A stretch of DNA of 64,000 nucleotides, from assembly GCA_016929635.1 (NCBI GenBank), contig JAFGIL010000072.1, positions 31,622-95,621 on the forward strand, read 5' to 3'. This document shows positions 38,919 to 64,000 of this stretch, piece after piece (the first letter of the stretch is position 1; each line of letters begins with the position of its first letter). This DNA is from Endomicrobiales bacterium (GTDB taxonomy: Bacteria; Elusimicrobiota; Endomicrobiia; Endomicrobiales; JAFGIL01). The position numbers and the translations under genes are program-made. The notes below the pieces were generated by a model. That model ran no database searches. It was not told the DNA's origin and was given only the letters and a program-made list of their open reading frames with translations.

Positions 38919-38920
38919 AC

Positions 38921-40013: not shown

Positions 40014-40020
40014 CATCAAA

Positions 40021-40383: not shown

Positions 40384-40408
40384 CAGACCTCAGACTCTAG
40401 ACAATATA

Positions 40409-42565: not shown

Positions 42566-42590
42566 TTTTACCTCTTTGAGTGCGAACTTG

Positions 42591-43871: not shown

Positions 43872-43888
43872 TTTATTTACTCCTCTAT

Positions 43889-44344
43889 TTATATGTCCGG
43901 TTCCAACCGAGCTTTTGATATTTTTTCTATAAAAATGTCTACCGTCTTACCTGTAACATCCGATATTTTAATCTGTCCATTTCCTGCCGAAAGAATTTCA
44001 CCTTTAAAATTCCTCTGCCCGTCCATCGGCTCATGCAAGGTTACTTTTGCCTTTTTTCCTATAAATTTAATAAAATCCTTTTCTTTTTTGAGAACCCTGT
44101 CTAACCCCGGGGAAGATATCTCAAGGATATATGAATCCGAAAGAACACCTGAGTTGTCAAGAAGGGTCCCCACTTTATCGCTCATATGCTCGCAGTCATC
44201 CAAACGCATACCACCATCTTTATCTATAAATAAACGTAAAACCATTTTCCCGTGTTCCCTTACATATTGTATATCCACCAGCTCCATTTTTTCTTCATTT
44301 AACACAGGATTAAGCAGTTTTTCAATATCAGCAACTGAGTTCAT
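43889..44344 (-). CDS. rimP: Ribosome maturation factor RimP
   Basis: LRLFIDKDGGMRLDDCEHMSDKVGTLLD...YILEISSPGLDRVLKKEKDFIKFIGKKAKV; first gene of rimP-nusA-infB. Confidence 0.93.
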   Translation of the reverse strand: MNSVADIEKLLNPVLNEEKMELVDIQYVREHGKMVLRLFIDKDGGMRLDDCEHMSDKVGTLLDNSGVLSDSYILEISSPGLDRVLKKEKDFIKFIGKKAKVTLHEPMDGQRNFKGEILSAGNGQIKISDVTGKTVDIFIEKISKARLEPDI

Positions 44345-44483: not shown

Positions 44484-47400
44484 TTATGCGGCAGATTCTA
44501 TGGCCTGCTGACCTGCTATCAGTACCGGATTTTTTAATGTCTTCAGTATTTCCAGATTGGATAACTCCCTGCTTGCATTTAGCCAAAGCAGTGCCAACAA
44601 GTCCTCCAGTGCAAATCCTTCGCTATTTGCCAAGACCTTTTCAAGAAGCTCCTCAACGCTTAAACTCGCATACTCATCAGGCAATTGCGGCAGTGCCGGG
44701 GTATAATTCCCTGATCTTATTAGCTCAGGTGTATCAGAACCAGAGTTAATTGCCTGCAGAATATACTGTAAAAACACCGGTTTATACTTTTCATCCATTA
44801 TTGTACCGGATAAATACGCACTCTCAGCAACTGCCAGGCAAATTCCATGCACAAGATTCATGCACATATGTACGGCTTCCTGTTTTGCTTCTAAATTACT
44901 GCTGTTTTCATATCTTTGTTTATATCTTAACACTGCCAGTTTGAATCTTTCCCTTTCTTTCCGGACATCACTTTCTTTTACATTAGCATAATTGAAGCTA
45001 ATATCCATTAAAGCATCTAATGTTTCAATCATCAATGCCTCGTCCCCTACAAAAGCTTCGCTATCTTCTGCATATTTCAATACTCTCTTAACCACTTGTT
45101 TGGCCGCATTATCAAAGACAGGAACCGGGCCACCTTGGAAGTATCTCTGCCCTTTTGATTGCTCCAGCTTCCTTTTTTCAGCTGGGTCTAACTCCTGAAA
45201 TCCTAAAACATCCAGAACAACTTCCATAAAATCAACAGTTGTTATCCTTGCTTCCCTTATCTCTTCAGACATAGCCAAGTCAGCATCCAAAATAACCAGA
45301 GGAACCTTTTGTTCGGAAGCCTGTCTCAGAATGTTTGACAGTGCATTATTTAAATCCATCCTGGACGCAACATCACTGCCAATAAATGATATCCTAAGGG
45401 AGGTATTTGCTCTCATATCGGTATAAGCTGACTCTGCTGAACTGAGAAACCTTTCATCAACCACAGAGATTCCCAACTTACTTGAGATTTCCATAAATTC
45501 ATCATAATTTTGCAACCTTGCCGGGATAGAGATAGTGAGATAACCTGAAGGCAGGTATCTTGAGTCCTGCGCTTCTTTATAAAATTCCAACAGATTTCTA
45601 TTTAAATCTATAACAGATTCTTGATAGTGCTCTCTAATTGATAGCATCATACCTGAAAACCCAATATAGATCGAACCTTTAATTAATCTTTCAAATGTAT
45701 TAACTGAAGCAGCTTCTGTAACAATATTTGAAGGTATAATACCCGTAACACTCTGATTTTTCTCTATTTGTTTTAAAACCCAGAGTGCACAACTGGCCTT
45801 TGCAATATACGTCTTTTTAAACTGGTCTGCAACTTCCCCATAGGGAACATCAGGCATACCTTTGGCCAGCCGCGTAAGCTCGACAACATACTTTTTCTCA
45901 TCTTCAGTAAAACCATCAAAGTATTTTTCCCCTTGTTTCAGCTGTTTTCTGCTTAAGTTCAGATAATCCTCATTTAAAGCCCCGTCTTTAAACAGGCCGT
46001 CTACAATTGTTGAACCTGCATGGCTGGGCCAGTATTTCAAATCCGTTTCGACAACACCCGGTAAATCCAGTATTGTCTTTATCCTTTTCTCTGCTTTTAA
46101 CTCTGCAAGGCCAAACCTTAAAGCCAAAGGCGACCTTGCCATCATTACAGCAGAACTGCTGCGCTGATGTGTCCTGTTTTCTCCCAGGAACATGCCGATG
46201 TTACTTCTTAAAGCCCCTGCCTGCATAACAAGATTGACTCTTTCTGAAGCCAATATATTTTTATTAGCATCACGCAATAAACTCGTTTCCATTTCAGGAT
46301 CCTGGTCGATTTCCGACACAACCATTGCGTTTGCTAATAATTTCTCAGCATTTGCAACATCAGGAAAGCTTATCTCAACCCCGCCAAACAGCCTTTTTGA
46401 CTGAACTCCGGGTATCATTTCCTGATTATCAATAAAAACAACATCGGGGAATGTCTTTTTATTTCTGAATTTCCTTTTTGGCTGGCCTGAAATAAGCATT
46501 TTGTTGACTTTTTTATCGATAAAACCTCTATACATCACCTGGCACGCAATGAAATACAAAGCCTGGGCTTCCTCGTTCTGATCTTTGAACTCAACTCCCT
46601 GAGGTTTGTCGATCAGTATCATGCCAGTTTTAGGATTTTTCCATACTTGCAACCTTTGAAGTTCGCCATTTACCATTACAACAGGACTTACAGGCCCTTC
46701 TTTCTGGATTTCATAACCACGCCCTACCAATCCTGCTGTCGAATAAGGAGCAAATGCAATACCGTGAGCATTTATTCCCATCTTCTTGAGATGTATTAAA
46801 TCCTGTACCTTCGATTCAATATTATTAGGATTTGAGACTATATGGAAAGTATCCCGGTTAACAGCCTCCGGATAGTTATCCATAAGCCATTTCTCATCCT
46901 GTTCAACAAGCAGCTGCTCTATCATATCCTGCGCCAAATCCTGCGGCTTTGCGGTATATCTCGAAAATCTTTTTACAATGTTATTCCAGAAACCAATAGT
47001 AATAACTCTTTCCTGCGGTAAATCTTTTACAGTATAAACAAAACGAAATTGATCATCTTCCCCGGGACGGTCCTCTTTAGGTTTGGCAGTGATAATATCT
47101 GATAGTTGAGCACTGACTTTGTTTTCGTAAAAATTTACACCTCTTTCATTGTCTTTAAAACAATTCAAATAAACAGTATCTATATTATTTTTTTGAGCAA
47201 ACTTAAAAGCTTTCTTCATTAGTTTAATAGAAATATCTGTTCCGAATGCAGACGGATCTGCAGCTATCAGGTCTATATATAATGAACCTGGATATTCAGG
47301 TGAATCTGAAGGTCTAATACTATAAACGATATATCCTGCAATTAATCCATCCCTAATTTCATAATCGATATAGTACTGCGGATTTTTAACATTCGCCAAT

Positions 47401-50400
47401 CTATCTTTCAAAGCCATCATTATTTTGGCATCACGCTTTTTATGTTCAACCGGCCAATATTTTCTTATACCTTGCGTTTCATTGTAATACGAAATATTTG
47501 AATTTATTTGCCTAATTTGAGAATAAAGAACATCAAAATTTGCCGTCCTGTCCGCTATTCCTATCATCCTTAAAATCCAAGCTGACAAATTAATCGCCAT
47601 ATTAGCAAAAAATCCAGGTATCCAGACCAAGACATTGTGAATTAAAGAATATTCCTTTTCTGATTTAACTGCGCTTTCATCAATAACTACTGAATCCTTC
47701 AAATATTTCTCTTTCATCTCCCTTGCCTGAGCATCCAGTCTTTCTATTTGAGATTCTATATTTCTTAAAAATTCATCCAGTTTTGCAAAATCTCCCTTAG
47801 CTTTATATACCTCATTATATAACTCAACGTAACCAATAATTGCAGCTGAACAAGTTCTGGTCCAGTGGCTTAAATCTCCTTCAAAATCTTTTAAACCTAA
47901 AATTATCATCATTACAAAAAGAGGTGTAAGTGAATCCAACAGTTTATAAGATTTGGTATTAATTACTCCCATACAATAATCAATATTCCCTTGTTCCGCA
48001 CTATCCCCTTTTTGAATTTCCGCCCTGATCCTTTGGCATAATGCTATAATTTCTTCTTTATCAGACGCTACCTTGTCAATGAAACCTTCAAACTCCTGCG
48101 CAAGCCTGGCTCTGGAAATTTCAGGGAAATAAACATTCAGTTTTTCTATATCCATAACTCCTAAATCCCTGTCTTCCTTGAGGCACACACTTAAATGATT
48201 TAAAAAGTACCCTTTAGCTTGCCCGGATATCTCCTTATTTTTAAAGGCAGATTCAAATATATTCAGAGCAATATAATCCGGAATTATACCCTGTTCAAAC
48301 TCTTTTTTAAAGCTATCGAAAGCTTTCATCGGGCTGCCGTATCTCTCATCCAACTCGACCGATGTCTTCCCGGAAATATATGAGCTTAGCTCCTCCCATG
48401 GCCTGTGACCGATAATAGTATCCCATAACGCAGCTCTAAAGAATAAAACAATATCTACAAGATGAAGGACAATGAAATCTAATACTTTGCGTAAAACTCC
48501 CCTTTCTCTCCTAGACATTTTTATTTGTTTCGATATGTGGGATAAATAGAACAATCTATCAAACATAAATGAACGATTTAACAGGTTTGGATTAAGAATA
48601 ACCGTATATTCATCTCCCCGTTTCTCATATCTAACAGGGCTGTACCCCCTTTCCTTAACTACTTTTATCTTCACATCTTCAAGCCCTGAGGCATCAAGCT
48701 TCTTCCTTGCCTCATATTCCAGATACTTTTCTCTCACCGTTATCTTATAATGCGCATTTTTTGATGCCCAGAGGCTGCTGGAAATATAAACAAATATAAA
48801 TAACACAGGAATCAAGAATAGGATTCCAAGAACTAAAATTGATGCTTTGAGTATTAAACCCAGCCCCAAAAGCAGCAGCCCTGCAAACAAAGTTGAGATT
48901 AAGGTATTAACAAGCGTATATTTCTGTGCTTTCTCAACCTCAACAATCCGGTCAGTTTCGGGCGATACTGCTGATTCTTGCTCTTCAATTTTTAACAGTT
49001 CAGGCAGGCCCTGTTTTTCAAGGGTCATATTTGCCCATTTAATTAAGGCAGGATGCCATGTTTTGTGAGCCCACTTATCCTTGCTGTATCTTTCAAACCT
49101 GATTTTATAAAGCAGTGCTTGTGCAGGTGTAACATTAAAATCGAAGTAATCCGGTTTAACGGGCCTGTTATAACGGATATCCCAGTATAGACTTCTTGCT
49201 TCTTCAGGTGTTTCAGCCGAGGCAACAATAGCTTCCAATACTTCCGGGTGTTTATCCAATGCATCAAGCCATTGCCTGAACCTGCTTAATGCCTGCTCAG
49301 GGCTGTCTGAATATTTTATAATCCTTGCTATAAAATCCGTAGTGAAAACAGGAAACGTTTTTTGTATATTCCTTAACGCCTGCTTATGTATATCTCTCTG
49401 ATGAATGCTATAGAAACTCATAATCCTTATACATGTTCCATAATCAGATATATCCGAGGATCCTGCATATAAATCTTCCAGGCCCAGCATCTTAGCAGGT
49501 TTTTTGTCTATTTTAACTGTGTCAGTCTCGCCGTAAGGATAAGGTTTTTCCAGCTCTTGCTTTAACTCATCAGGATCGCTCGGAGGCTCTTCCGGAATCA
49601 CAACACTCTGTTCATCTGTCTGTTTATCATCAGCTTTTCTGCTTAATCTAAGTTTTGGCCACTTTTTTAAGAATTTTACTTGATTATCAATCAGGACATT
49701 GTAATATATGTGCCAGGAAAAGCTGATTACTGCTCCTGCTATTAAAGATGCGACTTTTACCTGCACAAAATAATCACTTACTCCAAATGGCACCCAGATA
49801 ACAACCATTGATGCAATAAATCTTTTGACAACATTACCTAATAAGTGAAATAGCTTTCCAAATGCAGTTTTTTTCCGGTATTCTTCATTCTGTCTGAGAT
49901 TATATATATCAGTTATAATATGTATCAACGCAAAAACACCCAATGCAAGCATCCTTGTTACAGGATCCTGTATAAACGCAAAAACAACACCTAACGCAAT
50001 CGTCTCAAATAACTCGCTCCAGAACGGCACATTAAACAATCTCAGCGTTGTTTCAGGTTTTACTTCTTCATGAGCATCCGATTCCAACTGAATTGCGTCT
50101 TTTGGCAAGGTTATTCTTGCGATTGTTCTATGCTTTTTGCCGCTTTTATCATCCTCTACTTTTTCAGAGATATATTCAAACGTTCCTCCATGAAGTTGCA
50201 CTAACAATTGGCACCAGATAATACCAACACCTTGTGAACTGTAAAGATGATCTCTCCTGCACTCTCCTACAGGAGTATTTGAGACAATCCTGATACTTCC
50301 ATTCTCTCTTTTTCCTATCGTTTCAAGGCCAATCCCATAATCTATAAAATCTATTGTAACATTTTCACCTGCTTGTGATAAGGAAACTTCTATCGGGCCT

Positions 50401-53400
50401 TCATCGTTCAAACGAGTGTAAGCATCGCATGCGTTTTTATATAACTCCCATAATATGAAATCAAAATCTCTGGACATAGTATTCCCAGCTAATCCTTCAT
50501 GAGAATACTGAACCTGTTCATTTTCCAACAACCAGTCAATTCTTCTTGCGGTTACCATTCTTAGCAGTTCATCGTTTTCCGAAGTTATAGAATCCATGTC
50601 GACTTCTGCAGCCCATCTAAAATTCAGGTCCTTTGTTGCTTTCATATATTTCTGTATTCTGTTACGTTGCCATTTATAGTCATCTATATCTACTGATTTC
50701 TTGAAATCAATAGTATAAACAAATCCTTCGGAAGGTGTGCCCTCTGACCGCGTATCACCGGCAGTAAGTATATCATGCACAGGCTCCATTGTTTCGATAC
50801 TCCGCATAGCACGATCCAGATATTCAGGGCCTAATAATTTTCTCCCAACCAGGAAATCAACTATTCTGAAGTATAGAAGCCTTGCGTTTCGCGTAACCTG
50901 AGCATTTCTCGGGTCTATATCAGGATTATCCCAATCCGTGTACGGATAACTAATCCCTAAATTTGCATCATAACTATCTATATTTCTTCCAAGAAATACA
51001 AGCAGCGGAGTATTAATTCTTTGATAAGTAATATCAAAACCAATCATATAATCCATTGTCTCCAATACATATTCAGGACTATGTAATTCATGTAATATAT
51101 GCAGTGCCATCTTCCGTTTTAACTCATCAACTACATCTATTTGGGTATTTGTTGCATCCAGCTCCTCAGCCCACTCCACTAATACAGTGATGAAGGAAAC
51201 CATAGATTCGCCCGAAAATATATGGTCAGTGAAAACAGTCCTTTCCGGCCTGTTTATAATTGAAATTGGGTCTAAATCTAAACCTGAAAGGTATTGTCTA
51301 TATCTTAATACTTGTTCTCTACCGGGATGTTCTTTGTCTTTTTCAACCAACCTTGCATTGCGTTTGTGCCATCTTCCGGAGAATGCCACATATTCGAATC
51401 TGTCTGAATCCCATTCAAGCAACCTTGCCGTCTCTACAATCCATACAGGAGTCCTGCCTATTGCCACAATCCTTTCGGTTGGATATGCCTTTGCTAGTTT
51501 CCTGGATGTATCAACTAATGTTTCCACGGAAGAATCTTCTAATAGAGGGCAACTTACATCTTTTAAAGGCTTGAATGCTTTTCTAAATCTATTTCTGTAT
51601 CTCCGGAGTTTTGCAGGTCCTTTTTTAAGCAGTTTTCCCGCTTTTCTGCGCCATTCCCCCGTTACAAGTTCATCAATTAACAGGTTTTTGGATAAACTCT
51701 GAGCTGAATCAACGGTTGAACCCAGCATGCCTTCCGTACTTGCATTTTCCACATAATTCGGCATATCATCCGCAAATGCAACCTCTTCAGGAGTCAAACC
51801 GGTCTCCTGCAATATGTGTGCAAAATACTCCTGATCGCTTTTTGTATGGCCTTCCTGCCAGGAAACAAACTGTCTTTCAAATAATTCTTCAGGATTGCCT
51901 AATGCAGCAGTTAATGCTTCATTAACACTCTGTGTTTCACTCCAATTGCTGCCATCCGTGTGCTGGTCAGAAACAGTTGCCAGTCTGAAATTTCCAGCTA
52001 ATCTATTTAATGCACTTACTGTTCTCCGGTCAGATTTCCATGGTTTCTTGAAAAGATTGGCAAAATCCAGCGGCGTCAATCTTATAGGTATATCTCTGCC
52101 GGCCAAATAACTATTAAACAAATCCACATAGGCATCAAAAGAAACTTCAGAATCGCCTTCTTTATTCCTTCTGTATTCTATGCCACTTCCGTTTCTAAAT
52201 TTAGTATAGATATCCAGGAGTTCAGACTCAGATGTATATTCTGCAAACCCCAACTCATTAAAATACTTTTTAAATCTTGCTCCAGCAGCATGTAAGTCCG
52301 GCTGTATAACAACTCCCCCCACATCTAATAATACTGCCTTTACACCATCCAGCCTTTTAATATAAAACTCAGCCAGTTCTCTGGCTCTTTCATATTCCTG
52401 CTGATTTTTAGGCGATTCCAGGACTTCCAAAATAGAATCTGCAAAATCAGGGAATGAACGCAGCTTTATCATATCAACTTTATCCTGCATTGACTCAAGA
52501 TTCGCAGGAATTATTTCTAAAACCCGCTTTAAAACTTTAACATCTTTAGTTTTTAAAAATAAATTAGTATAACCAAAAATCGGAGTAAAGGGAGTTCTTC
52601 CCCAATGAATAAACAACAATTTAAAATATTCTAATTTATTACTTAAAGCAACTACTTCTTCCTCTAATGCAAATAGTAGTTGAACCTGTATGACTATATT
52701 ATCAAAATCTTGGTTGATTATTTCAAAATCTGCATCGTCTTTTCTCTGCAGCTCTTTTTCAATATTTCTGCATAAATCTTCAATGATTTTCTTTGAAGTA
52801 CCTATTTGAGCTGAAAATTCATTGAATTTAACCAGTAATCCTCTTGCTTTATTTTTGGATAACATATCTGATAAAAACCGTGTTGAATGCAGTATTTGGT
52901 TGCCATAAGCAATAAATTCAAGAGCTGTCCAGCGGTGGGTATTTTCGTGATACTGAATAATGCTTCTTCTTAGGTAATCCGGAAGGAATGAAAACGCTAA
53001 GTAATCTATATAAATTATACCGTCTTTAGCGGCTGCTATATCCGGCCTTGCTATTTCCAACTCATCAATTGTTATTTCTACTTCTTCAAACTTTAAACCT
53101 TTGCAATTTTCTTCAAGCCATGCTTTTACTTCTTCCTCTCTCACTCTTTTAATAGGGCCGGCCCTTATTTTATTAGCTTCCATTTGCGCCTGATGAATCA
53201 ACTGTTTCTGATTTTTCATTAACAAGATGCCTGTAAACGGTGCTAATAGTACAGAACCTGCTTCCAGTATTGCAACGAATACTCCTAAAATCCCTTGGGG
53301 TTTCTGTTTAACTGAACGTGAAATAATATATAATGCACCGCCGGATATTATGGTTACTCCTACCGCTATAGAGACTGCCCAAATTAAAGCTGGCAGATTA

Positions 53401-56400
53401 AAGATAATACCTACGGTAACCAATGTTACTGCCCCCGCTGCCTCAACTCCTGCTATTACTGATGCTGCTGCTCCTGCTTTCTTTGTACCTGATATACTTA
53501 CTTTTTCAAATTTATCTTCTATATCTTCATCCTCAGTAGATGATATTTTGCTTTTCTTTCTTAATGATAACTTCAAGTAGACAAGACTAGGCAGAGTCAT
53601 TAGATAAATAACACTCATAGCAGCAAGTGCATAATTCGATATAAATGAAGTATTTCCTACAAATAATAAACCCAATCCCAATAAAACAGCAACAAAACTT
53701 AAAATCAGCGTACTAACAATAAAACTCAGGCTGGCTCCTTTAAGCATTGAACTGCTTTCTTTTGTATAAGTAGTAATTATCTTACTGGCCTTAATTAATC
53801 CTCTTTTAAACAAATTTGTTTCTTTTTCTTCTTCGGTAAGAGGTACCGCAGGGCTGCTTACGCCTCTTAAAATATCAATAAATCTTGAGATCTGATATGC
53901 TGCAAAAAATACCAATAGCTCAAAAATAGGTATAGCAAGTATGGCAACTATTGTCTGAACATCCCCATGCAATACTCTTGTGATGGTATCTGGCATTATC
54001 AATCCATAGTAAGGGTCCTGGAACTTTACTATGGAATAATCTCCGGGTATGGATAATAACCAGGACCACGTGGTTACTGCAATTCCTATTGAGAAGAATA
54101 TCAGCTTTTTAAATGTGATATTTTCTTTATTAACCTCTCTCATACCTTCTCTGAAAATAAGCATACCTAGAGTAGCATCAAACAGATTTCCAACCCAACG
54201 CAAAAAGAAATAAGTGAAAGTCATGTAGTACAGTTCATCCATATTTGGGGTTGTGGTATGAGGAAATCCTACCCTGACTTCCAGACCGGCACTAATCCCT
54301 GTTAATAGTTTATATGAAATAAGTTTTAGGAATTGCCTTACATACGCATGGAACGGGTATAGAAAATAAAAACTTAAAGAACCAACCAACGTAACTATCA
54401 GCATTCTCACATTAGGCCTTCCCGAAAAGCGCTCGTCAACTTTCTTAATCCAATCGTCAAATGCTACCTGTTTCACCAAAGGCATGAAAACAATTGCCAA
54501 TCCTGCATAAAGGCCTACCTTGGCAGCACTTACTAAATCAGAGATGCCCAGATAAAGGAAATATTGCTGTAGAATTGCAGAAAGCATCAATCCAACTAAC
54601 GTACCAAAAAGTACTCTCCCCTGTCTGTGTAAAGCATACTGAATGATTATTCTAAGGCCGCGTACTTCCCCTATCGAAACGATGACTTGTTCTGCAAAAG
54701 GTATGGTAGTCAAGACACTAAATACACTTTTAAGCAGTAAAGAATAAAAATTGTACTCAGTTGACTGGGTCTGCTGTTTAAACCAGACACTAATCCTGTC
54801 ATGCTGCAGGAACTGTACCTTCAGTTCATCATCAAGAGAGACAAACAATGCGGGGTTTATCTCAAAAAATATCTTGCCGGAATCTCTTACGACCCTGCTT
54901 GGAACGTATTTCTCATTAATTGTTCTTATCTCAATTCCATTTTCAACAAGCTCTTCATAATAACCAGGCCTTGCATAATTCAAGATATCTCTTAAAATAT
55001 AAGATGGTTCCTCAGCTGAATCACGGTTTTCAACCAGTTTTGAAGCTCTCCATATGCCAAAAGCCTGCTGGCCATAGTATATAGCAGCGCGAATCCCAAA
55101 AATCGAACTTAGAATAACCATAACAATGATGCTTCCCTGCACACCGGCAATACCATATAATAGACTTGTAGGAGATAAGTAATAATATAATGTATATATT
55201 GCCACCAACGGAGAAAGCACAGACAAAGCGCTCATAATAACTCTGAGTGTAATGCCTGAGCTTATATTACGAAAACTTTTCAGAACCGGTTGTTTAAATT
55301 GGGAAAGCCTGGAATCCGTGTCAATTTGTGTGTCTTTATTTTTCATCAACCAGGAAACAAATAGAAGTGTGGTTACTATGTTAAATGCTCTGTGGATTGC
55401 TATGTTTACTGCTTCTCTGTGGAAGGGTATCAAATACCATGCTGCTGCCATTACTGATATGCCTGCTACCCGCAATACGCTCTGTATAGGCCAGAATACT
55501 ACTCCTATCCAGCCTAACACTGTGGTTGGCTTTGCATAGTGACCGATGAAAAATCCCCATACACCGTACCAGAAATCCCTGCTAAACGGGCTGTTTGAGA
55601 ATATATCCGCTATTTCACTATGTTCCACTACAGGCGCATAGCTCCATGATGCCCATACGCGCACCGCGGTGTTTATCCATACTTTCCTGTACCACTTCTC
55701 GCTATGATACATCCTTTCCCAGTCCGGTGACTTATAATGTTCATCCTGCAGGTATCTCTCAAAGGTAGATAACCTCATCAACCCGCCAGCCCCGCCCGGT
55801 TTCTTCACTGGTGTGACATCAATAGTAGCCGTATCTCTGGGTATATATCTTCGATGATAAAGATTTTCAACATTTTCAATATCGTAATTGAATCTTAAGG
55901 GGCCAGGATCTTCAGCTCTCTTTCGTATTTCAATAATTAAATAATTTGAATGATCTCTGTTAAAATAAAAAGTATCTTCATAAAACTCAGCTTCTATCTC
56001 GGGAGTCACTTCCATTAAAGGTTCTCCTCTTCTCCATGTCCCCTCGTCTGTTTTTACCCATCTTAGATGACTTAAATTGTCTATTACACAAAGCCGTATA
56101 TCATAACCTGCTTGTTGAAGACGTTTTATCTCACTGAAAATAGGCACACCTTCCAAATATACGCTTCCCAGAAACTGATCTTTATCTTCTAATAAATCTG
56201 TCTCAAAAGCTTCCATAGCTTCTGCGTAAGTCTCTTCATTCATAAGACTTAGAACAGCACTTGCTTTGCCATTTACTTTTAATATACGATATAATTCTTC
56301 AATACCCCTTAAGGGATCATACATATATTCAATTGATCGCGTAGCTAATGCAAGGGTAGCTGTTTCATCTTCATAAGGAAGATCCTCTCCTGTCTCTCCA

Positions 56401-59400
56401 AAACTCCACTCTACTGCTTGATAATAAGAATCATCTCTTTTACTTCTTCTTTCTTGTTCTTTTTCAACTTCTTCCCTAAACTCATTAACTTCAAATGCCA
56501 GAGACCTAAAACGGGTTTCTTTCATTTCAGGAAAAATAGATGCAAAAAATCCATCTGTTTCTTCTAATAAGTCTCTTGAAACAAATCCATAACCAGCACC
56601 TATATCTGCAACCACAAACTCAGCTAAAGAATTTGATTCCTGTGCTAAATCAACAGTATCAGAATGGGTAAAGGAAAATCCATGTAGTTCCTGTATACTT
56701 TCATATGCACCACCAAGGTACCTACTATTTAATCTTCTTCTCCGTTTCATTCCTACTGCTTTTGCAGAGTACTCACTTATTTGAGTCTTTAATCCCTCCC
56801 TTGTAAGACCACTAAAAATGATTTCCTCACTATGTAAATCAGACTGTGGTTCTGGTTTTTCTTCGTCAGGTTCTATAGGTGCAACTTCTTGAGGTATATC
56901 TGGCTCAACAGATGCTTCAGGTTTTACTTCCGACTTATAGTCAACAGTGTTTATACTTTGTGGATATGAGGTTTTTGAGATTGCTATTGAAACCAGTATG
57001 ATAAAGACAATAGTGCCAACCAAACAAACAATAACGTCCATCCAGTCAAAAGTGCCTGTTAATCCAAATTTCCCTTCCAATACCTCATGCCCGGAAATAC
57101 TTAACGCGTTAAATAGTGCAGCCCATATAAATCCGTACTTCAATGATTTCTGATACTCAGTGTTTTTACCAGAAAATATATATTTTTGTAGAATGGGAAT
57201 TACAAACCTGATACCCAGTGTCGCAACGATAAATGAAAACAGCGGATTTAGGAGAACAAAATGTGTATACAATATTACATATGCAAAACTAATCGCAACT
57301 GCTAAAGAAGCAATCATCTTAGTAACTGTAAATGCTTTTGAGATATTTTTTTCTTTTCTTGAAGTAGGTTGTTCTATCTTATAACTGCTGAATAATGCAT
57401 AGTTCGCACAGAGTATTGCAGGTATAATCAAAGCGTCATTAAGATACCAACGTATATATATACCCAATCTGCCTTGGGTTGAGGATATCAGCATCGACCT
57501 TACAATTACCTCTCCAACAGCAGTCAGTTTTATTGCGGAAAATAAATGCAAGATGTAACCCCAAAGATAAGTAGCAAAACCTGTATAAAATAGTATTGCT
57601 GGAATAATAAGAGATATGCATACAAGCAAATATCGTTTCAAATTGCGATTTATTAATGGAGGTTTCTTTTCTTTTACATCTCCAGACTGTGTTGTGTCAA
57701 TTCCTTCCTGATCATAATCAGCTTTTACCAGTGATTTTGAAAACCTGTCTCTAAAATATAGCCCAATAGAAACAGGACTTAGAGGTGCAATGATAAAAGA
57801 ATATATAACGATTATTATCCAACTTCCCAGAATAAGCTGTTTAGCTTGGTCACTTCCTATCATTTCTGCAAATACATTAATGAATCTTGGATAATAATCG
57901 GAAAAACCTAGAAAAAACGTAACATAGGATGCCGAAAGTATTACCAATACCAATACTATCCGTACTAATGTTGGAATATATCTGTCATATACCAAACCTA
58001 TTCTTTCTTTACCTGTTTTTGGAAATACTCTGGCTATCAATGATACTATGGGAGTTCTAAACCAGCCAACAATATCTTCAAAATATCGTGTGTCCAATGA
58101 ACCCGGCTTACTTAAAGAAGCATCAGCCTTTAACGAATCATAATCTCTACCTTGTATGAATTTCTTAATAATTGTCACAACAGTATTTATCCCCATATGC
58201 AGCCATACAGCAAGTGGCGACAGGGGTGAGAGTTTAAAAATTATTCCCGTAAAACCTATTAATGCAGGAAAAATCATATTAAGGCTTGGCGGTGCAATCT
58301 TCTTTCCGGGTTTTACAAAATCTATGGCGTAATCCAATAAATGAAGAGCAATAAAAAGCACCCAAGCAATTATTACATTTCCGCCGAAAAATGTATTGGC
58401 GATTACAGTAACTAAAATATTTTCAATAAACGGCGCTACTATTACATCATAAACACTGTTAAAGCTCTCCTGTCTGACTTCCGGGAAAATTCTTGAAAAT
58501 ACACCCCACATAATGGCTCTCAACCAGTTCCAGACACCCCCTCTATAAGTTTTGCCTTCCGCTGGTGCAGCGAATCTATCATCTGCCTTTTCTATAGTAA
58601 AGATAAAATCACCGCACTTGCTAATAAATCTATAGAAACTGCCGAATGTTTCCTGAATTTGTTCTTCATCTAATATATCAACTTCGCCTCTTTGCCATCT
58701 TACAATATATTCCAACACTTTAGCCCGCATTTCCGGATTTTCAGGCAAAAATCCTTTTCTTATGTAAAAGAAAATTGTTTTCCAATCGGTCAACTGATAT
58801 TTCATCACTCTAAACTTTGTAATCCCGTATCTGTTTTTTAATACATTCAACTTCATATAAAAAAGTATCTTCATATGCGGCGATTCAACAAAATTCACGT
58901 TAAGATTATATCCCATTCCCATCCTGGCTTCATCTCTTCTTTCTATATGAAATTGAGTAAATCCATGTGCTACATCTTTATTGCCAACAGTGTAATGTTC
59001 CGGGTCCAGTGAAAGACCGCTAATACTCTCCCACCACTCATACTGGTATTCAACGCCATCAACTCCCAATGCAACTGCATTGTACGTATCGGGGCCGCTC
59101 TTCTCGCTAAGCCGCCCGTCAAGTTCATCAATTTCATTACTACACCTTTGCATAAATTCATCTAAAACTTGCTCATCATATTTTGCTGGTGAAGGCTGCT
59201 CAGAGGCTTCCTGCAGGCTAAAAACTAGATCACCGCAAGTTCCAAGGAAAGTAAAATAATCCCCAAATATCTCTTTTATTTCATCGTATTTTAGTCTATC
59301 CACCGTTCCGGTCTTCCAGAGGCTAAGATAAGTCAATACTTTATCTCTTGCTAAGGGATCAACAGGCATGAATCCTTTCCGGATATAGAAGAAAAAGGTA

Positions 59401-62400
59401 TTCCAATCTTTAAATTGACTGTTTGGCACAATAAATCCTTCAGTACCATATCTGTTTTTTAATACATTAAGCTTCATTTCAAATAGTATCTTCATATGGG
59501 TCGATCCGATATCTTCCATTCCCGGATTATAACCCATTCTTATTAAAGCTCCATCTTCATGTAAATTAGTGAATCCATGAGCTACCATAACATTATCGAC
59601 ATAAAAGAACTCAATAAAATTATTGCGCTCGAGATTAGTTTCCCATCTATAACGGTATTTAACGCCATCTATCTCTAAATCAGCAAAATTAATTATGTCC
59701 AGCTCATAACTGGATATTTTAAGACGTCCATCTAATTCGGCAATCTCGCTTGTCCGCTGTTCTATAAGGCTTCTAACAACTTGATCTTTACGTACTTTAT
59801 CACTCATCAACCAGGAGGCAAAAAGAGGTGTGGTTACAACGTTGAATGCTCTGTGGATTGCTATATTTACTGCTTCTCTGTGGAAAGGTATTAAATACCA
59901 TGCTGCTGCCATTACTGATATGCCTGCTACTCTCAATATGCTCTGTATCGGCCAGAATACTACCCCTAGCCAACCCAATACCGTGGTCGGCTTTGCATAG
60001 TGCCCGATGAAAAAGCCCCATACTCCATACCAGAAATCCCTGCTAAACGGACTGTTTGATAATATATCCGCTATTTCACTATGTTCCACTACAGGCGCAT
60101 AGCTCCAGGATGCCCATACGCGCACCGCGGTGTTTATCCATACTTTCTTGTACCACTTCTCGCTATGATACATCCTTTCCCAGTCCGGTGACTTATAATG
60201 TTCATCCTGCAGGTATCTCTCAAAGGTTGATACCCTCATCAACCCGCCAGCCCCGCCCGGTTTCACCTTTGATGTTTCATCGGATACTGTTGCAGCCCCT
60301 TGCTCAATAACTGCTTCTAAAAAGAAGATAAGCTCATCAAAGCGGTCTGTATATCTACTTAAATCACTAATTCGCCTTTGTACATTATCATTTTCTCGAA
60401 TCAATTGAGTTGCTATCGTTATAATTCCAATTCTATTACTAACATAATGTTTTAATGAACTTATAACATTTGGATTGTAGTATATAGACCTGAATATTTC
60501 ATCTATTCCTGCAATCTCAGGTAAAATATCTGCATATCTGATAGAATACTTTTTTCTTGATTCTGCAATAATTTCTTCTATTAAATGTATATACTCTTGT
60601 TTTTTTGCTTTTATAAATGTTGTTAGGGCTTTTAACTGATCAATAGAAACATCCCTTAATATATCATCAATATCCATTTGAGATATCACTCCTGTTGCGT
60701 TACTATATAAGACGGCAGGTTTTTTCTTAACAAAAGCTAATAATCCCACATTAACATTGCTAGAATCAACCTCTATGTCCGGCCTCGTTTTTGCAAATCT
60801 TGCAGCTATGTCCCTAAGTTTTTCTTCATTAAAAGCACCCTCCTCTATATGAGGTGTAATCGACGATAAATCTGCAACACCTTCATCAAATGGAACTGAT
60901 ATCATAACGCCATGGTTACATGCTTCAAGCCAGGTTTCAATATATCTAGCTATACCATCAAAGGTTTCAATCCCTTCCAGGTGTTCCAGAACATGGTTCA
61001 GTACTATAAAATCAGCAGGTGAACCGAAACTGTTAATTGAAAAAATTTTCAAATCATCGCTTGAATTTATACTTTCCGGATTTGCAGTTATAAATTTTAT
61101 ATTATCAGCCTCTGGAGCATATGACTTTGCACCATACTCTATTATGTCTTCCTGTACATCAGTCCCAAGTAATCTTGCAGATTCGATGCTTTTATCTGCA
61201 CTGAATATAAAAGATCCTAAACCGGTCCCTAAATCATGAATTATAGGTCTTTCCAAGCCTCTCTGCATAGAAATCTTTTGAATCATTTCTATTTCACGAT
61301 GGTATAACCAACCAAAGTGAGCTGTATGCAAGTAATTGTCAGAATTTAGAAGATTTTTACTTGGGTCATATACATCTCCATGTCTATATCTTCCAATTGT
61401 TTCATCAAAAACCTTTTGTGTCTGTCTGGTAACTATTCCCAACCTTTCCCCATGAGTTATCCGGCCTGCAGAAAACCTTTCCACTGCCTGTACAAGCCTT
61501 ACAATATTTACATTTAATTCTTTATTGAAAAAATACTCATTTAACTCTTTACGCCTATACCAAAAATGATCTTTCTGCAAATTATCACCAAATTTTGGAA
61601 TGATAAGGAATACAGTTTTGCCTTTTTCAATCATAGTATAGACATCGAACCATTTGCCGTTCAATTCGATTATTCCGCCTCTTCTCTCAATATCCTCACG
61701 TTCCTTATCATATGCGAAATAAAAGCCTTCCATTTCATCACGGTTTTTATAAATGTCATCAAAATCGCTCCATTTAACTATTGCCGCCTGGAATGAATCA
61801 ATCCTACCTTTTGAACTAAGCAGCAGTCTGTCTATCCACTCTTTCAACCCGCGTTTAGCAGCTGAAAGTGCCACGTATTTGTCTACATATACCATTACAC
61901 TGGGATGTTTTTGAAGTGCTGTTGAAGGAATTGATGGGGTTACAGGCCCATACAATGTGTCGCTTAAAACTTTGCCAAAAGCCTGGCGGTCGGTCTGGCT
62001 TCTTTTTTCACAGGCAAGATTCCATAAAATATGCTGTGCGCTTAAAATTGTACCTATTCCCATGGTCAAAGCCTGCACGCGCATATCTGAAAGATCATCA
62101 TAGAAGCGAGAGTTATCCAAAATTGTTGTTACAGCCAAATCTACCACATGAGTTTTAGATTCCAGAAGATTCGTCTCATTTGCTAAATTTAAGTTATGTC
62201 TGGAGAATCGCTCATTTATGCCAATTATTCTTTCCGGACCAGTTTTAAAATACTCATCACTTACATAAACTATTAATCTTTGAGCTCGTATTTCATCAGC
62301 CAATCTGTCTATACCAGGTTTTTCCTGGTATTCCTCGCCTTTTTCCTCTGCTCTTCTCCTGAATTCATCTCTTAAGTAATCCTGGATTTTATCTCGTTGT

Positions 62401-63992
62401 CTTTCTCTTGCTTCAGTTAAAGACTGCAATGCCTTTTCATACCGTTCTGCAGGAACTTTCAGAACAAACTCGTTAAAATCGCGCACCTTAGCAAGTGTTT
62501 CAGCATCATTTTGAACAAGCTTCTGAAGAAACTCTTCATCTACCTCAATAGCCGGCTCATTAAATGCCACATGTCCGTTACTGCCAGCCCCTGCAAACTG
62601 CAGGAATATTCCTGTATTTCTTAAGATTTCTTCATACTCTCTGCATTCTCTAGTTAAATCCGGTGCTATCCCGTTCAAAAAGTGAATATTATTGGGGTCA
62701 AAACCTGACTCTTTTATATGCTTAAACACATTTTCCCACATATAGTGGACATAGCTCTGTTCTTCTTGGGTAAGGTCTCCTCCGTATCTTTGCAGGATGT
62801 ACTCACCGTCATATACATGTTCATCCAGATTTGAGGTTTGTACTCTTGACCAATCTACAGCTGCCCTGAATACAGTTGTTAGAGCATTATATATAGGTAT
62901 AGGCGTACTTCCTGTCTGCCAGCCGGTTAAAACAGTTTCATCTGCTCCTAACCTTTCTAATTCCTGATTTATCATAGATACCCATCTCTCTGCTGCTCTA
63001 CGGCCCATTTCATCATGGGTATCTGAGACCGAGATGTCAAAGTTCCCTCTTTCTACTGTGCGGTTTAATACATACTCCATTGCCTCGCTTGGTATAAACC
63101 TTGCCTGGCACACTCTTTGAGCCATGAACTCAGGCAATGCAATACCTAAGAAAAGCACAAAAACTCCAAACCACGTCTTCATCCATCTTACTACCCCTAC
63201 TGTACCGCCAGGTTTATCTTTTGTTTCTCCTGCACCTAACTCCAATGGAATCAAGCCAAGCGCGGGTACAATAATGGCGTTATATATAAAATGAAGGATA
63301 GCACTTATGACAGCTGAACTTAATAAAGACTGGCCTAAATTTTGTATTAATACCTGATTTATTCCTAAAGGAAGGAATGCATAATTGAACGGCAGCCATA
63401 CTACAACTGCCGCTGCTAAAACAAATCCTCCTATAACTCCTGTCATCTTGAGTAAACGCCTAAACAAAGGAGTATCTTCTCTTGAAATATCTATGCATTT
63501 TTTAATTATCTGCGGTATGTGGAGTGCTGCAAAAACTAAGGTTATTGCACCCCATATTAAAGGTGTAGGTGTCAGAATGGAATATACTACTGCAAGACCT
63601 ATTGTCTCTGTAAACGCTGCTGACAATGGATGGCTTATTACCCAGGCCAGCCACTGCCACCATTTGAGAACCCCTCCCTGCCTTGATCTTGTTTTATTTA
63701 TCCAATCATGTAACGGCTGTAAAAGGTTTAATCCCATATCGGATTTTTCGAATCTACCTTCTATCGCAGAACGAAGCTTTGAGGGTTGCCAGAATTTATA
63801 TTGTGTCCAGAATTCTAAAAGCAGGCTCTTGAGATGAAAAATATCACTAATCTGTCCCAGTAATCCATCATAGGTCTTTTCTAGATCAGGTCTCTTAAAT
63901 GGATCGTTCAAAAAATCCTTGCTCAATAATCTGGAATCTTGTTCTGAATAGTATTTAATAAGATCTTCCAGTTTTTCATATAATATTCCCAC
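44484..63992 (-). CDS. Giant multidomain polytopic membrane protein (at least 6502 aa, 5' end probably outside the window)
   Basis: Single uninterrupted reading frame. The first possible start in the window is GTG at 63992, but the frame stays open to the window edge. Many TM segments and numerous enzyme-like domains. Confidence 0.9.
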   Translation of the reverse strand: MGILYEKLEDLIKYYSEQDSRLLSKDFLNDPFKRPDLEKTYDGLLGQISDIFHLKSLLLEFWTQYKFWQPSKLRSAIEGRFEKSDMGLNLLQPLHDWINKTRSRQGGVLKWWQWLAWVISHPLSAAFTETIGLAVVYSILTPTPLIWGAITLVFAALHIPQIIKKCIDISREDTPLFRRLLKMTGVIGGFVLAAAVVVWLPFNYAFLPLGINQVLIQNLGQSLLSSAVISAILHFIYNAIIVPALGLIPLELGAGETKDKPGGTVGVVRWMKTWFGVFVLFLGIALPEFMAQRVCQARFIPSEAMEYVLNRTVERGNFDISVSDTHDEMGRRAAERWVSMINQELERLGADETVLTGWQTGSTPIPIYNALTTVFRAAVDWSRVQTSNLDEHVYDGEYILQRYGGDLTQEEQSYVHYMWENVFKHIKESGFDPNNIHFLNGIAPDLTRECREYEEILRNTGIFLQFAGAGSNGHVAFNEPAIEVDEEFLQKLVQNDAETLAKVRDFNEFVLKVPAERYEKALQSLTEARERQRDKIQDYLRDEFRRRAEEKGEEYQEKPGIDRLADEIRAQRLIVYVSDEYFKTGPERIIGINERFSRHNLNLANETNLLESKTHVVDLAVTTILDNSRFYDDLSDMRVQALTMGIGTILSAQHILWNLACEKRSQTDRQAFGKVLSDTLYGPVTPSIPSTALQKHPSVMVYVDKYVALSAAKRGLKEWIDRLLLSSKGRIDSFQAAIVKWSDFDDIYKNRDEMEGFYFAYDKEREDIERRGGIIELNGKWFDVYTMIEKGKTVFLIIPKFGDNLQKDHFWYRRKELNEYFFNKELNVNIVRLVQAVERFSAGRITHGERLGIVTRQTQKVFDETIGRYRHGDVYDPSKNLLNSDNYLHTAHFGWLYHREIEMIQKISMQRGLERPIIHDLGTGLGSFIFSADKSIESARLLGTDVQEDIIEYGAKSYAPEADNIKFITANPESINSSDDLKIFSINSFGSPADFIVLNHVLEHLEGIETFDGIARYIETWLEACNHGVMISVPFDEGVADLSSITPHIEEGAFNEEKLRDIAARFAKTRPDIEVDSSNVNVGLLAFVKKKPAVLYSNATGVISQMDIDDILRDVSIDQLKALTTFIKAKKQEYIHLIEEIIAESRKKYSIRYADILPEIAGIDEIFRSIYYNPNVISSLKHYVSNRIGIITIATQLIRENDNVQRRISDLSRYTDRFDELIFFLEAVIEQGAATVSDETSKVKPGGAGGLMRVSTFERYLQDEHYKSPDWERMYHSEKWYKKVWINTAVRVWASWSYAPVVEHSEIADILSNSPFSRDFWYGVWGFFIGHYAKPTTVLGWLGVVFWPIQSILRVAGISVMAAAWYLIPFHREAVNIAIHRAFNVVTTPLFASWLMSDKVRKDQVVRSLIEQRTSEIAELDGRLKISSYELDIINFADLEIDGVKYRYRWETNLERNNFIEFFYVDNVMVAHGFTNLHEDGALIRMGYNPGMEDIGSTHMKILFEMKLNVLKNRYGTEGFIVPNSQFKDWNTFFFYIRKGFMPVDPLARDKVLTYLSLWKTGTVDRLKYDEIKEIFGDYFTFLGTCGDLVFSLQEASEQPSPAKYDEQVLDEFMQRCSNEIDELDGRLSEKSGPDTYNAVALGVDGVEYQYEWWESISGLSLDPEHYTVGNKDVAHGFTQFHIERRDEARMGMGYNLNVNFVESPHMKILFYMKLNVLKNRYGITKFRVMKYQLTDWKTIFFYIRKGFLPENPEMRAKVLEYIVRWQRGEVDILDEEQIQETFGSFYRFISKCGDFIFTIEKADDRFAAPAEGKTYRGGVWNWLRAIMWGVFSRIFPEVRQESFNSVYDVIVAPFIENILVTVIANTFFGGNVIIAWVLFIALHLLDYAIDFVKPGKKIAPPSLNMIFPALIGFTGIIFKLSPLSPLAVWLHMGINTVVTIIKKFIQGRDYDSLKADASLSKPGSLDTRYFEDIVGWFRTPIVSLIARVFPKTGKERIGLVYDRYIPTLVRIVLVLVILSASYVTFFLGFSDYYPRFINVFAEMIGSDQAKQLILGSWIIIVIYSFIIAPLSPVSIGLYFRDRFSKSLVKADYDQEGIDTTQSGDVKEKKPPLINRNLKRYLLVCISLIIPAILFYTGFATYLWGYILHLFSAIKLTAVGEVIVRSMLISSTQGRLGIYIRWYLNDALIIPAILCANYALFSSYKIEQPTSRKEKNISKAFTVTKMIASLAVAISFAYVILYTHFVLLNPLFSFIVATLGIRFVIPILQKYIFSGKNTEYQKSLKYGFIWAALFNALSISGHEVLEGKFGLTGTFDWMDVIVCLVGTIVFIILVSIAISKTSYPQSINTVDYKSEVKPEASVEPDIPQEVAPIEPDEEKPEPQSDLHSEEIIFSGLTREGLKTQISEYSAKAVGMKRRRRLNSRYLGGAYESIQELHGFSFTHSDTVDLAQESNSLAEFVVADIGAGYGFVSRDLLEETDGFFASIFPEMKETRFRSLAFEVNEFREEVEKEQERRSKRDDSYYQAVEWSFGETGEDLPYEDETATLALATRSIEYMYDPLRGIEELYRILKVNGKASAVLSLMNEETYAEAMEAFETDLLEDKDQFLGSVYLEGVPIFSEIKRLQQAGYDIRLCVIDNLSHLRWVKTDEGTWRRGEPLMEVTPEIEAEFYEDTFYFNRDHSNYLIIEIRKRAEDPGPLRFNYDIENVENLYHRRYIPRDTATIDVTPVKKPGGAGGLMRLSTFERYLQDEHYKSPDWERMYHSEKWYRKVWINTAVRVWASWSYAPVVEHSEIADIFSNSPFSRDFWYGVWGFFIGHYAKPTTVLGWIGVVFWPIQSVLRVAGISVMAAAWYLIPFHREAVNIAIHRAFNIVTTLLFVSWLMKNKDTQIDTDSRLSQFKQPVLKSFRNISSGITLRVIMSALSVLSPLVAIYTLYYYLSPTSLLYGIAGVQGSIIVMVILSSIFGIRAAIYYGQQAFGIWRASKLVENRDSAEEPSYILRDILNYARPGYYEELVENGIEIRTINEKYVPSRVVRDSGKIFFEINPALFVSLDDELKVQFLQHDRISVWFKQQTQSTEYNFYSLLLKSVFSVLTTIPFAEQVIVSIGEVRGLRIIIQYALHRQGRVLFGTLVGLMLSAILQQYFLYLGISDLVSAAKVGLYAGLAIVFMPLVKQVAFDDWIKKVDERFSGRPNVRMLIVTLVGSLSFYFLYPFHAYVRQFLKLISYKLLTGISAGLEVRVGFPHTTTPNMDELYYMTFTYFFLRWVGNLFDATLGMLIFREGMREVNKENITFKKLIFFSIGIAVTTWSWLLSIPGDYSIVKFQDPYYGLIMPDTITRVLHGDVQTIVAILAIPIFELLVFFAAYQISRFIDILRGVSSPAVPLTEEEKETNLFKRGLIKASKIITTYTKESSSMLKGASLSFIVSTLILSFVAVLLGLGLLFVGNTSFISNYALAAMSVIYLMTLPSLVYLKLSLRKKSKISSTEDEDIEDKFEKVSISGTKKAGAAASVIAGVEAAGAVTLVTVGIIFNLPALIWAVSIAVGVTIISGGALYIISRSVKQKPQGILGVFVAILEAGSVLLAPFTGILLMKNQKQLIHQAQMEANKIRAGPIKRVREEEVKAWLEENCKGLKFEEVEITIDELEIARPDIAAAKDGIIYIDYLAFSFLPDYLRRSIIQYHENTHRWTALEFIAYGNQILHSTRFLSDMLSKNKARGLLVKFNEFSAQIGTSKKIIEDLCRNIEKELQRKDDADFEIINQDFDNIVIQVQLLFALEEEVVALSNKLEYFKLLFIHWGRTPFTPIFGYTNLFLKTKDVKVLKRVLEIIPANLESMQDKVDMIKLRSFPDFADSILEVLESPKNQQEYERARELAEFYIKRLDGVKAVLLDVGGVVIQPDLHAAGARFKKYFNELGFAEYTSESELLDIYTKFRNGSGIEYRRNKEGDSEVSFDAYVDLFNSYLAGRDIPIRLTPLDFANLFKKPWKSDRRTVSALNRLAGNFRLATVSDQHTDGSNWSETQSVNEALTAALGNPEELFERQFVSWQEGHTKSDQEYFAHILQETGLTPEEVAFADDMPNYVENASTEGMLGSTVDSAQSLSKNLLIDELVTGEWRRKAGKLLKKGPAKLRRYRNRFRKAFKPLKDVSCPLLEDSSVETLVDTSRKLAKAYPTERIVAIGRTPVWIVETARLLEWDSDRFEYVAFSGRWHKRNARLVEKDKEHPGREQVLRYRQYLSGLDLDPISIINRPERTVFTDHIFSGESMVSFITVLVEWAEELDATNTQIDVVDELKRKMALHILHELHSPEYVLETMDYMIGFDITYQRINTPLLVFLGRNIDSYDANLGISYPYTDWDNPDIDPRNAQVTRNARLLYFRIVDFLVGRKLLGPEYLDRAMRSIETMEPVHDILTAGDTRSEGTPSEGFVYTIDFKKSVDIDDYKWQRNRIQKYMKATKDLNFRWAAEVDMDSITSENDELLRMVTARRIDWLLENEQVQYSHEGLAGNTMSRDFDFILWELYKNACDAYTRLNDEGPIEVSLSQAGENVTIDFIDYGIGLETIGKRENGSIRIVSNTPVGECRRDHLYSSQGVGIIWCQLLVQLHGGTFEYISEKVEDDKSGKKHRTIARITLPKDAIQLESDAHEEVKPETTLRLFNVPFWSELFETIALGVVFAFIQDPVTRMLALGVFALIHIITDIYNLRQNEEYRKKTAFGKLFHLLGNVVKRFIASMVVIWVPFGVSDYFVQVKVASLIAGAVISFSWHIYYNVLIDNQVKFLKKWPKLRLSRKADDKQTDEQSVVIPEEPPSDPDELKQELEKPYPYGETDTVKIDKKPAKMLGLEDLYAGSSDISDYGTCIRIMSFYSIHQRDIHKQALRNIQKTFPVFTTDFIARIIKYSDSPEQALSRFRQWLDALDKHPEVLEAIVASAETPEEARSLYWDIRYNRPVKPDYFDFNVTPAQALLYKIRFERYSKDKWAHKTWHPALIKWANMTLEKQGLPELLKIEEQESAVSPETDRIVEVEKAQKYTLVNTLISTLFAGLLLLGLGLILKASILVLGILFLIPVLFIFVYISSSLWASKNAHYKITVREKYLEYEARKKLDASGLEDVKIKVVKERGYSPVRYEKRGDEYTVILNPNLLNRSFMFDRLFYLSHISKQIKMSRRERGVLRKVLDFIVLHLVDIVLFFRAALWDTIIGHRPWEELSSYISGKTSVELDERYGSPMKAFDSFKKEFEQGIIPDYIALNIFESAFKNKEISGQAKGYFLNHLSVCLKEDRDLGVMDIEKLNVYFPEISRARLAQEFEGFIDKVASDKEEIIALCQRIRAEIQKGDSAEQGNIDYCMGVINTKSYKLLDSLTPLFVMMIILGLKDFEGDLSHWTRTCSAAIIGYVELYNEVYKAKGDFAKLDEFLRNIESQIERLDAQAREMKEKYLKDSVVIDESAVKSEKEYSLIHNVLVWIPGFFANMAINLSAWILRMIGIADRTANFDVLYSQIRQINSNISYYNETQGIRKYWPVEHKKRDAKIMMALKDRLANVKNPQYYIDYEIRDGLIAGYIVYSIRPSDSPEYPGSLYIDLIAADPSAFGTDISIKLMKKAFKFAQKNNIDTVYLNCFKDNERGVNFYENKVSAQLSDIITAKPKEDRPGEDDQFRFVYTVKDLPQERVITIGFWNNIVKRFSRYTAKPQDLAQDMIEQLLVEQDEKWLMDNYPEAVNRDTFHIVSNPNNIESKVQDLIHLKKMGINAHGIAFAPYSTAGLVGRGYEIQKEGPVSPVVMVNGELQRLQVWKNPKTGMILIDKPQGVEFKDQNEEAQALYFIACQVMYRGFIDKKVNKMLISGQPKRKFRNKKTFPDVVFIDNQEMIPGVQSKRLFGGVEISFPDVANAEKLLANAMVVSEIDQDPEMETSLLRDANKNILASERVNLVMQAGALRSNIGMFLGENRTHQRSSSAVMMARSPLALRFGLAELKAEKRIKTILDLPGVVETDLKYWPSHAGSTIVDGLFKDGALNEDYLNLSRKQLKQGEKYFDGFTEDEKKYVVELTRLAKGMPDVPYGEVADQFKKTYIAKASCALWVLKQIEKNQSVTGIIPSNIVTEAASVNTFERLIKGSIYIGFSGMMLSIREHYQESVIDLNRNLLEFYKEAQDSRYLPSGYLTISIPARLQNYDEFMEISSKLGISVVDERFLSSAESAYTDMRANTSLRISFIGSDVASRMDLNNALSNILRQASEQKVPLVILDADLAMSEEIREARITTVDFMEVVLDVLGFQELDPAEKRKLEQSKGQRYFQGGPVPVFDNAAKQVVKRVLKYAEDSEAFVGDEALMIETLDALMDISFNYANVKESDVRKERERFKLAVLRYKQRYENSSNLEAKQEAVHMCMNLVHGICLAVAESAYLSGTIMDEKYKPVFLQYILQAINSGSDTPELIRSGNYTPALPQLPDEYASLSVEELLEKVLANSEGFALEDLLALLWLNASRELSNLEILKTLKNPVLIAGQQAIESAA
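47100..47385 (-). other. GNAT acetyltransferase-like domain in the giant protein
   Basis: YYIDYEIRDGLIAGYIVYSI ... LYIDLIAADPSAFGTDISIKLMKKAFKFAQKNNIDTVYLNCFKDNERGVNFYENKV. Confidence 0.65.
50100..50490 (-). other. HATPase_c (GHKL ATPase) domain in the giant protein
   Basis: N-box LWELYKNACDAY, G1 IDYGIGL, G2 SSQGVGIIWCQLLVQLHGGTFEY. Confidence 0.75.
51140..51560 (-). other. Phosphoribosyltransferase-like domain in the giant protein
   Basis: RIVAIGRTPVWIVETARLL ... RTVFTDHIFSGESMVSFITVL resembles the PRPP-binding loop of type I PRTases. Confidence 0.45.
51680..52355 (-). other. HAD-superfamily hydrolase domain in the giant protein
   Basis: VKAVLLDVGGVVIQPDL, GHTKSDQEYFAHILQETGLTPEEVAFADDMPNYVENASTEGMLG. 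Confidence 0.75.
52450..52640 (-). other. Degenerate HisKA (dimerisation/phosphoacceptor)-like segment
   Basis: FIHWGRTPFTPIFGYTNLFLKTKDVKVLKRVLEIIPANLESMQDKVDMIK resembles HELRTPLT.I.GY..LL; His codon at 52605..52607. Confidence 0.5.
52840..53150 (-). other. HExxH metallopeptidase-like module in the giant protein
   Basis: IIYIDYLAFSFLPDYLRRSIIQYHENTHRWTALEF; HENTH at 52935..52949. Confidence 0.5.
55343..55803 (-). repeat. 461-bp direct repeat copy 2 (KPGGAGGLM...SWLM membrane module)
   Basis: Same length and near-identical DNA to 59804..60264, same reading frame. Confidence 0.95.
55880..56760 (-). other. SAM-dependent methyltransferase-like domain 2 in the giant protein
   Basis: FVVADIGAGYGFVSRDLLEE ... 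LALATRSIEYMYDPLRGIEELYRILKVNGKASAVLSL. Confidence 0.65.
58570..59795 (-). other. Tandem duplicated GNAT-like domains (about 59195..59795 and 58570..59175)
   Basis: Both share E(I)xELDGRL, VAHGFT, HMKILFxMKLNVLKNRYG, DWxTxFFYIRKGFxP and CGDxxF in order. Confidence 0.7.
59804..60264 (-). repeat. 461-bp direct repeat copy 1 (KPGGAGGLM...SWLM membrane module)
   Basis: Translates to 153 aa differing from 55343..55803 at 8 positions by manual alignment. Confidence 0.95.
60715..61320 (-). other. SAM-dependent methyltransferase-like domain 1 in the giant protein
   Basis: PIIHDLGTGLGSFIFSADKSIESARLLGTDVQEDIIEYG ... ADFIVLNHVLEHLEG. Confidence 0.7.
61870..63070 (-). other. NagB-like (glucosamine-6-phosphate deaminase-type) domain inside the giant protein
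   Basis: TGSTPIPIYNAL, NLDEHVYDGE, FLQFAGAGSNGHVAFNEPA, ALTMGIGTIL, HPSVMVYVDKY occur in NagB order. Confidence 0.7.
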
Positions 63993-64000
63993 CCTCTGCA

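Follow-up and report, generated by a model that had tools for sequence, protein, structure and literature searches.

The window, a stretch of 64,000 nucleotides from an Endomicrobiales bacterium (phylum Elusimicrobiota) that was analysed as a whole, raises the question of what a NagB-like domain is doing inside a giant membrane protein, and whether it can still work as an enzyme there. The initial annotation located this domain at 61870-63070, and these coordinates cover it to within about 30 bp. Its embedding in a giant membrane protein is likewise borne out, as the open reading frame (ORF) has at least 6504 aa and about 30 hydrophobic segments in a simple hydropathy scan, and all five motifs that had been noticed lie in NagB order in a single frame of the minus strand. 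The phylum is borne out by the NagB of G275, a genome listed in the same phylum as the window, which is 100% identical to the NagB of Candidatus Obscuribacterium magneticum, placed by NCBI in Elusimicrobiota; Omnitrophota, which the giant ORF had suggested, was given up on this evidence. No 16S rRNA was found in the genome of the window. The features are collected in Table 1.

Table 1. Features of the giant ORF and of its NagB-like domain (positions in the window)
Feature	Position	Strand	Remark
Giant ORF	44484..63998	-	at least 6504 aa; N-terminally incomplete
Hydrophobic segment (aa 275-293) immediately preceding the NagB domain	63120..63176	-	simple hydropathy; fourth and last in the N-terminal portion present
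NagB-like domain including insertion (P0002, 415 aa)	61854..63098	-	profile, PDB and structure matches
Motif TGSTPIPIYNAL	62880-62915	-	
Motif NLDEHVYDG	62805-62831	-	
Asp, equivalent of E. coli NagB Asp72, kept	62823..62825	-	57/57 in homologues
His at E. coli Tyr74 position	62817..62819	-	Tyr in 57/57 homologues
Motif GAGSNGHVAFNEPA	62550-62591	-	
Asn at E. coli Asp141 position	62577..62579	-	commonest residue among homologues examined
His, His143 equivalent, kept	62571..62573	-	57/57 in homologues
Glu, Glu148 equivalent, kept	62556..62558	-	57/57 in homologues
Mostly helical insertion of ~125 aa, directly after FNEPA	62175..62549	-	between FNEPA and LESKTHVV
Arg, Arg172 equivalent, kept	62106..62108	-	Arg172 in 49/57 homologues
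Motif MGIGTIL	62043-62063	-	
Arg at E. coli Lys208 position, then 8-aa insertion	62001..62003	-	Lys in 57/57 homologues
Motif HPSVMVYVDKY	61875-61907	-	
Methyltransferase-like domain, in the soluble stretch of the NagB domain	60957..61235	-	motif DLGTGLG read directly; Pfam score just below cut-off
Transmembrane module, first copy (KPGGAGGLMR...)	59802..60347	-	common to the G001 giant
Second methyltransferase-like domain	56196..56609	-	motif DIGAGYG read directly
Transmembrane module, second copy	55329..55838	-	95% identical over 152 aa searched
HAD-type hydrolase domain	51756..52343	-	catalytic motifs DVGGV, S, K, DD read directly
HATPase_c-type ATP-binding domain	50100..50462	-	Pfam
GNAT acetyltransferase-like domain	47124..47405	-	Pfam

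The segment is a member of the PF01182 superfamily, but it fails the nagB equivalog test TIGR00502, since its match to this profile (E = 1.1e-45) reaches 156 bits against a cut-off of 236.9. The PF01182 profile (Glucosamine_iso) is itself only just reached, with 28.3 bits against a curated cut-off of 27 on P0001, and its match is absent from the scans of the 1499-aa ORF piece and of the whole genome, perhaps because the insertion splits it. The best PDB matches of the domain were 2ri0 (E = 2e-25) and 1cd5 (E = 4e-25), and chance can be dismissed as the source of such similarity. The structure check that had been proposed for the fold gave the NagB-type, Rossmann-like fold: the AlphaFold2 model has a mean pLDDT of 81.6, with most core blocks above 90, and Foldseek aligned it to the 20 leading NagB chains with target-normalised TM-scores of 0.77-0.91, the highest of which belonged to B. 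subtilis NagB 2bkv (rmsd 2.4).

The mapping of the active site in the initial annotation also stands, as the equivalents of Asp72, His143 and Glu148 are kept and the Asp141 position (P0002 residue 174) is Asn; what does not stand is the view that this Asn marks an altered or binding-only domain. It can be observed that B. subtilis NagB reads GRNGHIGFNEP and that S. mutans NagB aligns as GRNAHIGFNEP, both with Asn at 141, and these two enzymes represent the monomeric version of GlcN6P deaminase (PMC4281351). Asn also occupies the position in 42 of the 42 free-standing NagB homologues from the phylum of the window whose motif was read, a set retrieved with the whole window domain and not with the 141 motif. 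Among 57 diverse homologues (alignment A2), 44 had Asn, 12 had Asp and one had Thr, a ratio biased towards Asn because an NGH pattern served to retrieve part of these sequences, whereas the phylum set is free of this bias. Judged by these alignments, Asn is the usual residue of the family at 141, and since it is usual in working enzymes and homologues alike, the change gives no ground for supposing that function is lost, and the reading of it as a mark of inactivation was rejected. A wrong argument for inactivation is thereby removed and a testable case is put in its place. A binding-only domain is possible on other grounds, which are Tyr74 to His, Lys208 to Arg, the insertion and the general drift of the domain, none of them remarked on in the initial annotation.

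With respect to this drift, the tree placed the window domain in the clade of B. subtilis NagB (99/94), apart from the E. coli-type group, a placement that is unsure because the branches are long; its terminal branch measures 1.95 against a median of 0.44. Compared with the 57 homologues, the window domain retains the common residue at 46 of the 66 columns that are at least 80% conserved; free enzymes retain it at 52-65 of 65-69, and by this measure the window domain has drifted further than they have. The 20 departures include Tyr74 to His, Lys208 to Arg, Phe to Tyr and Pro to Arg, at columns that are invariant in all 57 homologues. The reading of Lys208 as Arg is somewhat less certain than the others, because a one-residue shift (EKR) beside the 8-aa insertion could match a Lys. 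In E. coli NagB, Lys208 contacts the phosphate of the substrate, and Arg could do likewise. At the allosteric site, the equivalents of Ser151, Ser152, Arg158 and Lys160 are Asn, Leu, His and Val, which is not the E. coli type.

The ~125-aa insertion adjoins the catalytic Glu and is modelled as mostly helical by AlphaFold2, its final third being predicted at very low confidence. It was absent from the aligned free NagBs and from the three other giant-borne NagB domains described below. When the phylum was searched for sequences related to the insertion, nothing better than marginal hits came up (E 0.003 at best); we ascribe these to chance or to the resemblance of low-complexity helices and did not accept them as relatives. 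Among these weak hits are further giant ORFs from the same order, G015:C43 (7511 aa) and G025:C15 (5516 aa). Single-sequence scans of genome contigs and viral contigs disclosed no relatives of the exact window domain.

The long branch, the losses at conserved columns and the several insertions would all suit a passenger, that is, a fused enzyme gene retained as a folded spacer or surface and left to drift. Such decay would also agree with the giant of genome G001, which belongs to the same family as the window yet shares only the transmembrane module, in a genome with no detectable NagB, and with the more degraded NagB copy of G002. Nevertheless, the catalytic residues are kept while 30% of the conserved columns have changed (20 of 66), which suggests constraint on the site, and catalytic motifs are still recognisable in the methyltransferase and HAD domains of the same protein. 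On this balance we regard a structural or decaying role as unlikely.

Since a fusion of this kind might be produced by the assembly, the integrity of the giant ORF has to be weighed as well. Contig C21 and the window stop at the same point, which leaves the ORF open at its 5' end, and both this contig end and the division of the assembly into 77 contigs would be compatible with an assembly or frame artefact that joined separate genes. However, the frame runs through 6504 codons without a stop, with a uniform codon-position G+C pattern along its entire length, and independent genomes carry ORFs of 5228, 7856 and 12,027 aa. Huge proteins are moreover reported as typical of Elusimicrobiota (PMC11573180), and they occur in related phyla too, with functions that are unknown or ascribed to adhesion or carbohydrate degradation (PMC10066038, PMC12057145); with its at least 6504 aa, the protein lies above the 5000 aa of these huge Elusimicrobiota proteins. 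An artefact is thus very improbable. Directly downstream of the giant gene and on the same strand lie rimP, nusA and infB, followed by genes for a DHH phosphoesterase, truB, ribF, an EF-G-like gene and pnp, the whole group spanning 32793-44344.

Within the giant, the fourth hydrophobic segment, flanked by two Lys/Arg on each side, leads directly into a soluble stretch of 1060 aa that is opened by the NagB domain. The transmembrane module of ~180 aa occurs twice in the window giant and again in the G001 giant. Both window copies start with KPGGAGGLMR, and a similar KPGG precedes the membrane segment ahead of the NagB domain. The motifs of the methyltransferase-like domains and of the HAD domain look intact. 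The C-terminal 1314 aa (44487-48428) form a long soluble stretch whose only Pfam match is the GNAT-like domain.

Taking these observations together, the explanation we favour, at about an even chance of being right, is that the domain is a captured, monomeric, B. subtilis-type NagB-fold module of the membrane giant, which has diverged, probably binds sugar phosphates and may turn them over. It would still bind an aminohexose phosphate or a related sugar phosphate, with the Arg at the Lys208 site replacing Lys as phosphate ligand, and may deaminate or isomerise this ligand at a modified rate or specificity. The flanking membrane segments would keep it at the membrane beside the methyltransferase, HAD phosphatase, HATPase and GNAT domains, and the ~125-aa insertion could serve as a lid extension or a docking element. 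Counted against this explanation are the missed equivalog cut-off, the change of two invariant active-site residues, the long branch and the greater losses of the G002 copy. A further point against it is that the genome of the window contains glmS and no detectable nagA, which leaves the domain without a usual route of amino-sugar breakdown to act in and speaks against such a role.

The same two substitutions, together with the insertion beside the active site, could instead point to a ligand sensor, a domain that no longer catalyses but still binds a sugar phosphate and thereby changes the state of the giant membrane protein. The initial annotation had suggested sensing, possibly of cell-wall precursors, but had rested it on the change at Asp141. 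Sensors with this fold exist, and Foldseek weakly returned the effector-binding domains of CggR and LsrR (E about 0.01); a HATPase_c-type ATPase domain is present in the same protein. Still, a pure sensor would not need the catalytic Asp72, His143 and Glu148, all of which are kept; the argument from Asp141 is void; and the Pfam scan found neither HAMP, HisKA or GGDEF-type signalling domains nor a DNA-binding domain in the giant. We therefore hold sensing to be a distinctly less probable role than that of a diverged, captured NagB module, though a somewhat better candidate than decay.

The window is not the only place where NagB has entered a giant, as NagB-like domains in large ORFs were found in four genomes of the phylum, belonging to four families (the window, G002, G152 and G278). 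The ORF of G002, from the same order as the window, has 5228 aa and a degraded NagB site, with Thr at 141, FDEP, and no aligned Arg172 equivalent; since this copy has lost more, catalysis need not be what such giants retain. That of G152 (2773 aa, cut by the contig end) has Glu at 141 and LDN in place of LDE. By comparison, the 7856-aa ORF G278:C90 carries a canonical NagB of 284 bits, above the TIGR00502 cut-off; other domains of this giant are an RNB exonuclease, iPGM_N (phosphoglycerate mutase), a metalloenzyme and an adenosine deaminase. In the tree, from which G002 was left out, the domains of the window, G278 and G152 group together without support, and a single origin of the giant-borne NagB domains is neither shown nor rejected by it. 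No other clear NagB was found in these four genomes, apart from one weak ORF of 37.9 bits in G278, and no nagA over the cut-off, absences that are not proof because the genomes are 79-96% complete. The G001 giant (G001:C12:50638-86718, 12,027 aa) harbors PPDK_N (258 bits), PEP-utilizers, Lipase_3, GT1, APH, an M20 peptidase and an LMWPc-like domain, and BLAST between it and the window giant found nothing in common beyond the transmembrane module.

Giants of Elusimicrobiota are abundant and almost unannotated, and several of those seen here have recognisable cytoplasmic-enzyme domains, one of them a canonical NagB. A wider reading, which we offer tentatively and consider rather doubtful, is that these giants are membrane-bound poly-enzymes, which arose as domains of housekeeping enzymes were captured again and again onto transmembrane modules that were being shuffled, the captured domain being in some lineages the only copy of its family in the cell, as with NagB in the four genomes here. 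If this were true, a metabolic step that is normally soluble would have been transferred to one giant polypeptide of the membrane, and if such domains are active, the giants would be membrane-tethered multi-enzymes, unlike their usual interpretation as adhesins or surface weapons.

A non-exhaustive literature search, which left most subscription journals and bioRxiv outside, brought up no account of a huge protein that contains a NagB domain. The huge proteins (>5000 aa) described from Elusimicrobiota and Omnitrophota (PMC11573180, PMC10066038) resemble the window giant in their length, many transmembrane segments and uncertain function, but they are mainly read as adhesion or carbohydrate-degrading surface proteins, while the recognisable domains of the window giant are of cytoplasmic-enzyme type. 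With the NagB domain of G278, the window domain shares its place in a giant ORF and the Asn at 141; the G278 copy, however, is canonical, full-length and insertion-free, whereas that of the window lies below the cut-off and contains an insertion. The effector domains of CggR (2okg) and LsrR (4l4y) have a related fold and ligands of sugar-phosphate type, but their structural similarity is marginal (E about 0.01) and the window giant has no Pfam DNA-binding domain. Hexameric E. coli NagB (1cd5/1dea) has the superfamily and the catalytic Asp72, His143 and Glu148 in common with the window domain, and differs from it in that Asp141 is Asn in the window, Ser152, Arg158 and Lys160 are not kept, and the two fall in different tree groups. 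Comparatively, the monomeric NagBs of B. subtilis (2bkv/2bkx) and S. mutans (2ri0/2ri1) share with the window domain the fold, the motif order, the Asn at 141, the equivalents of Asp72, His143, Glu148 and Arg172, and the lack of conservation of the E. coli-type allosteric residues. On the other hand, the window domain departs from them in Tyr74 to His, Lys208 to Arg and the insertions of ~11 and ~125 aa, and it lies inside a giant membrane protein, whereas theirs is a free enzyme of ~240 aa.
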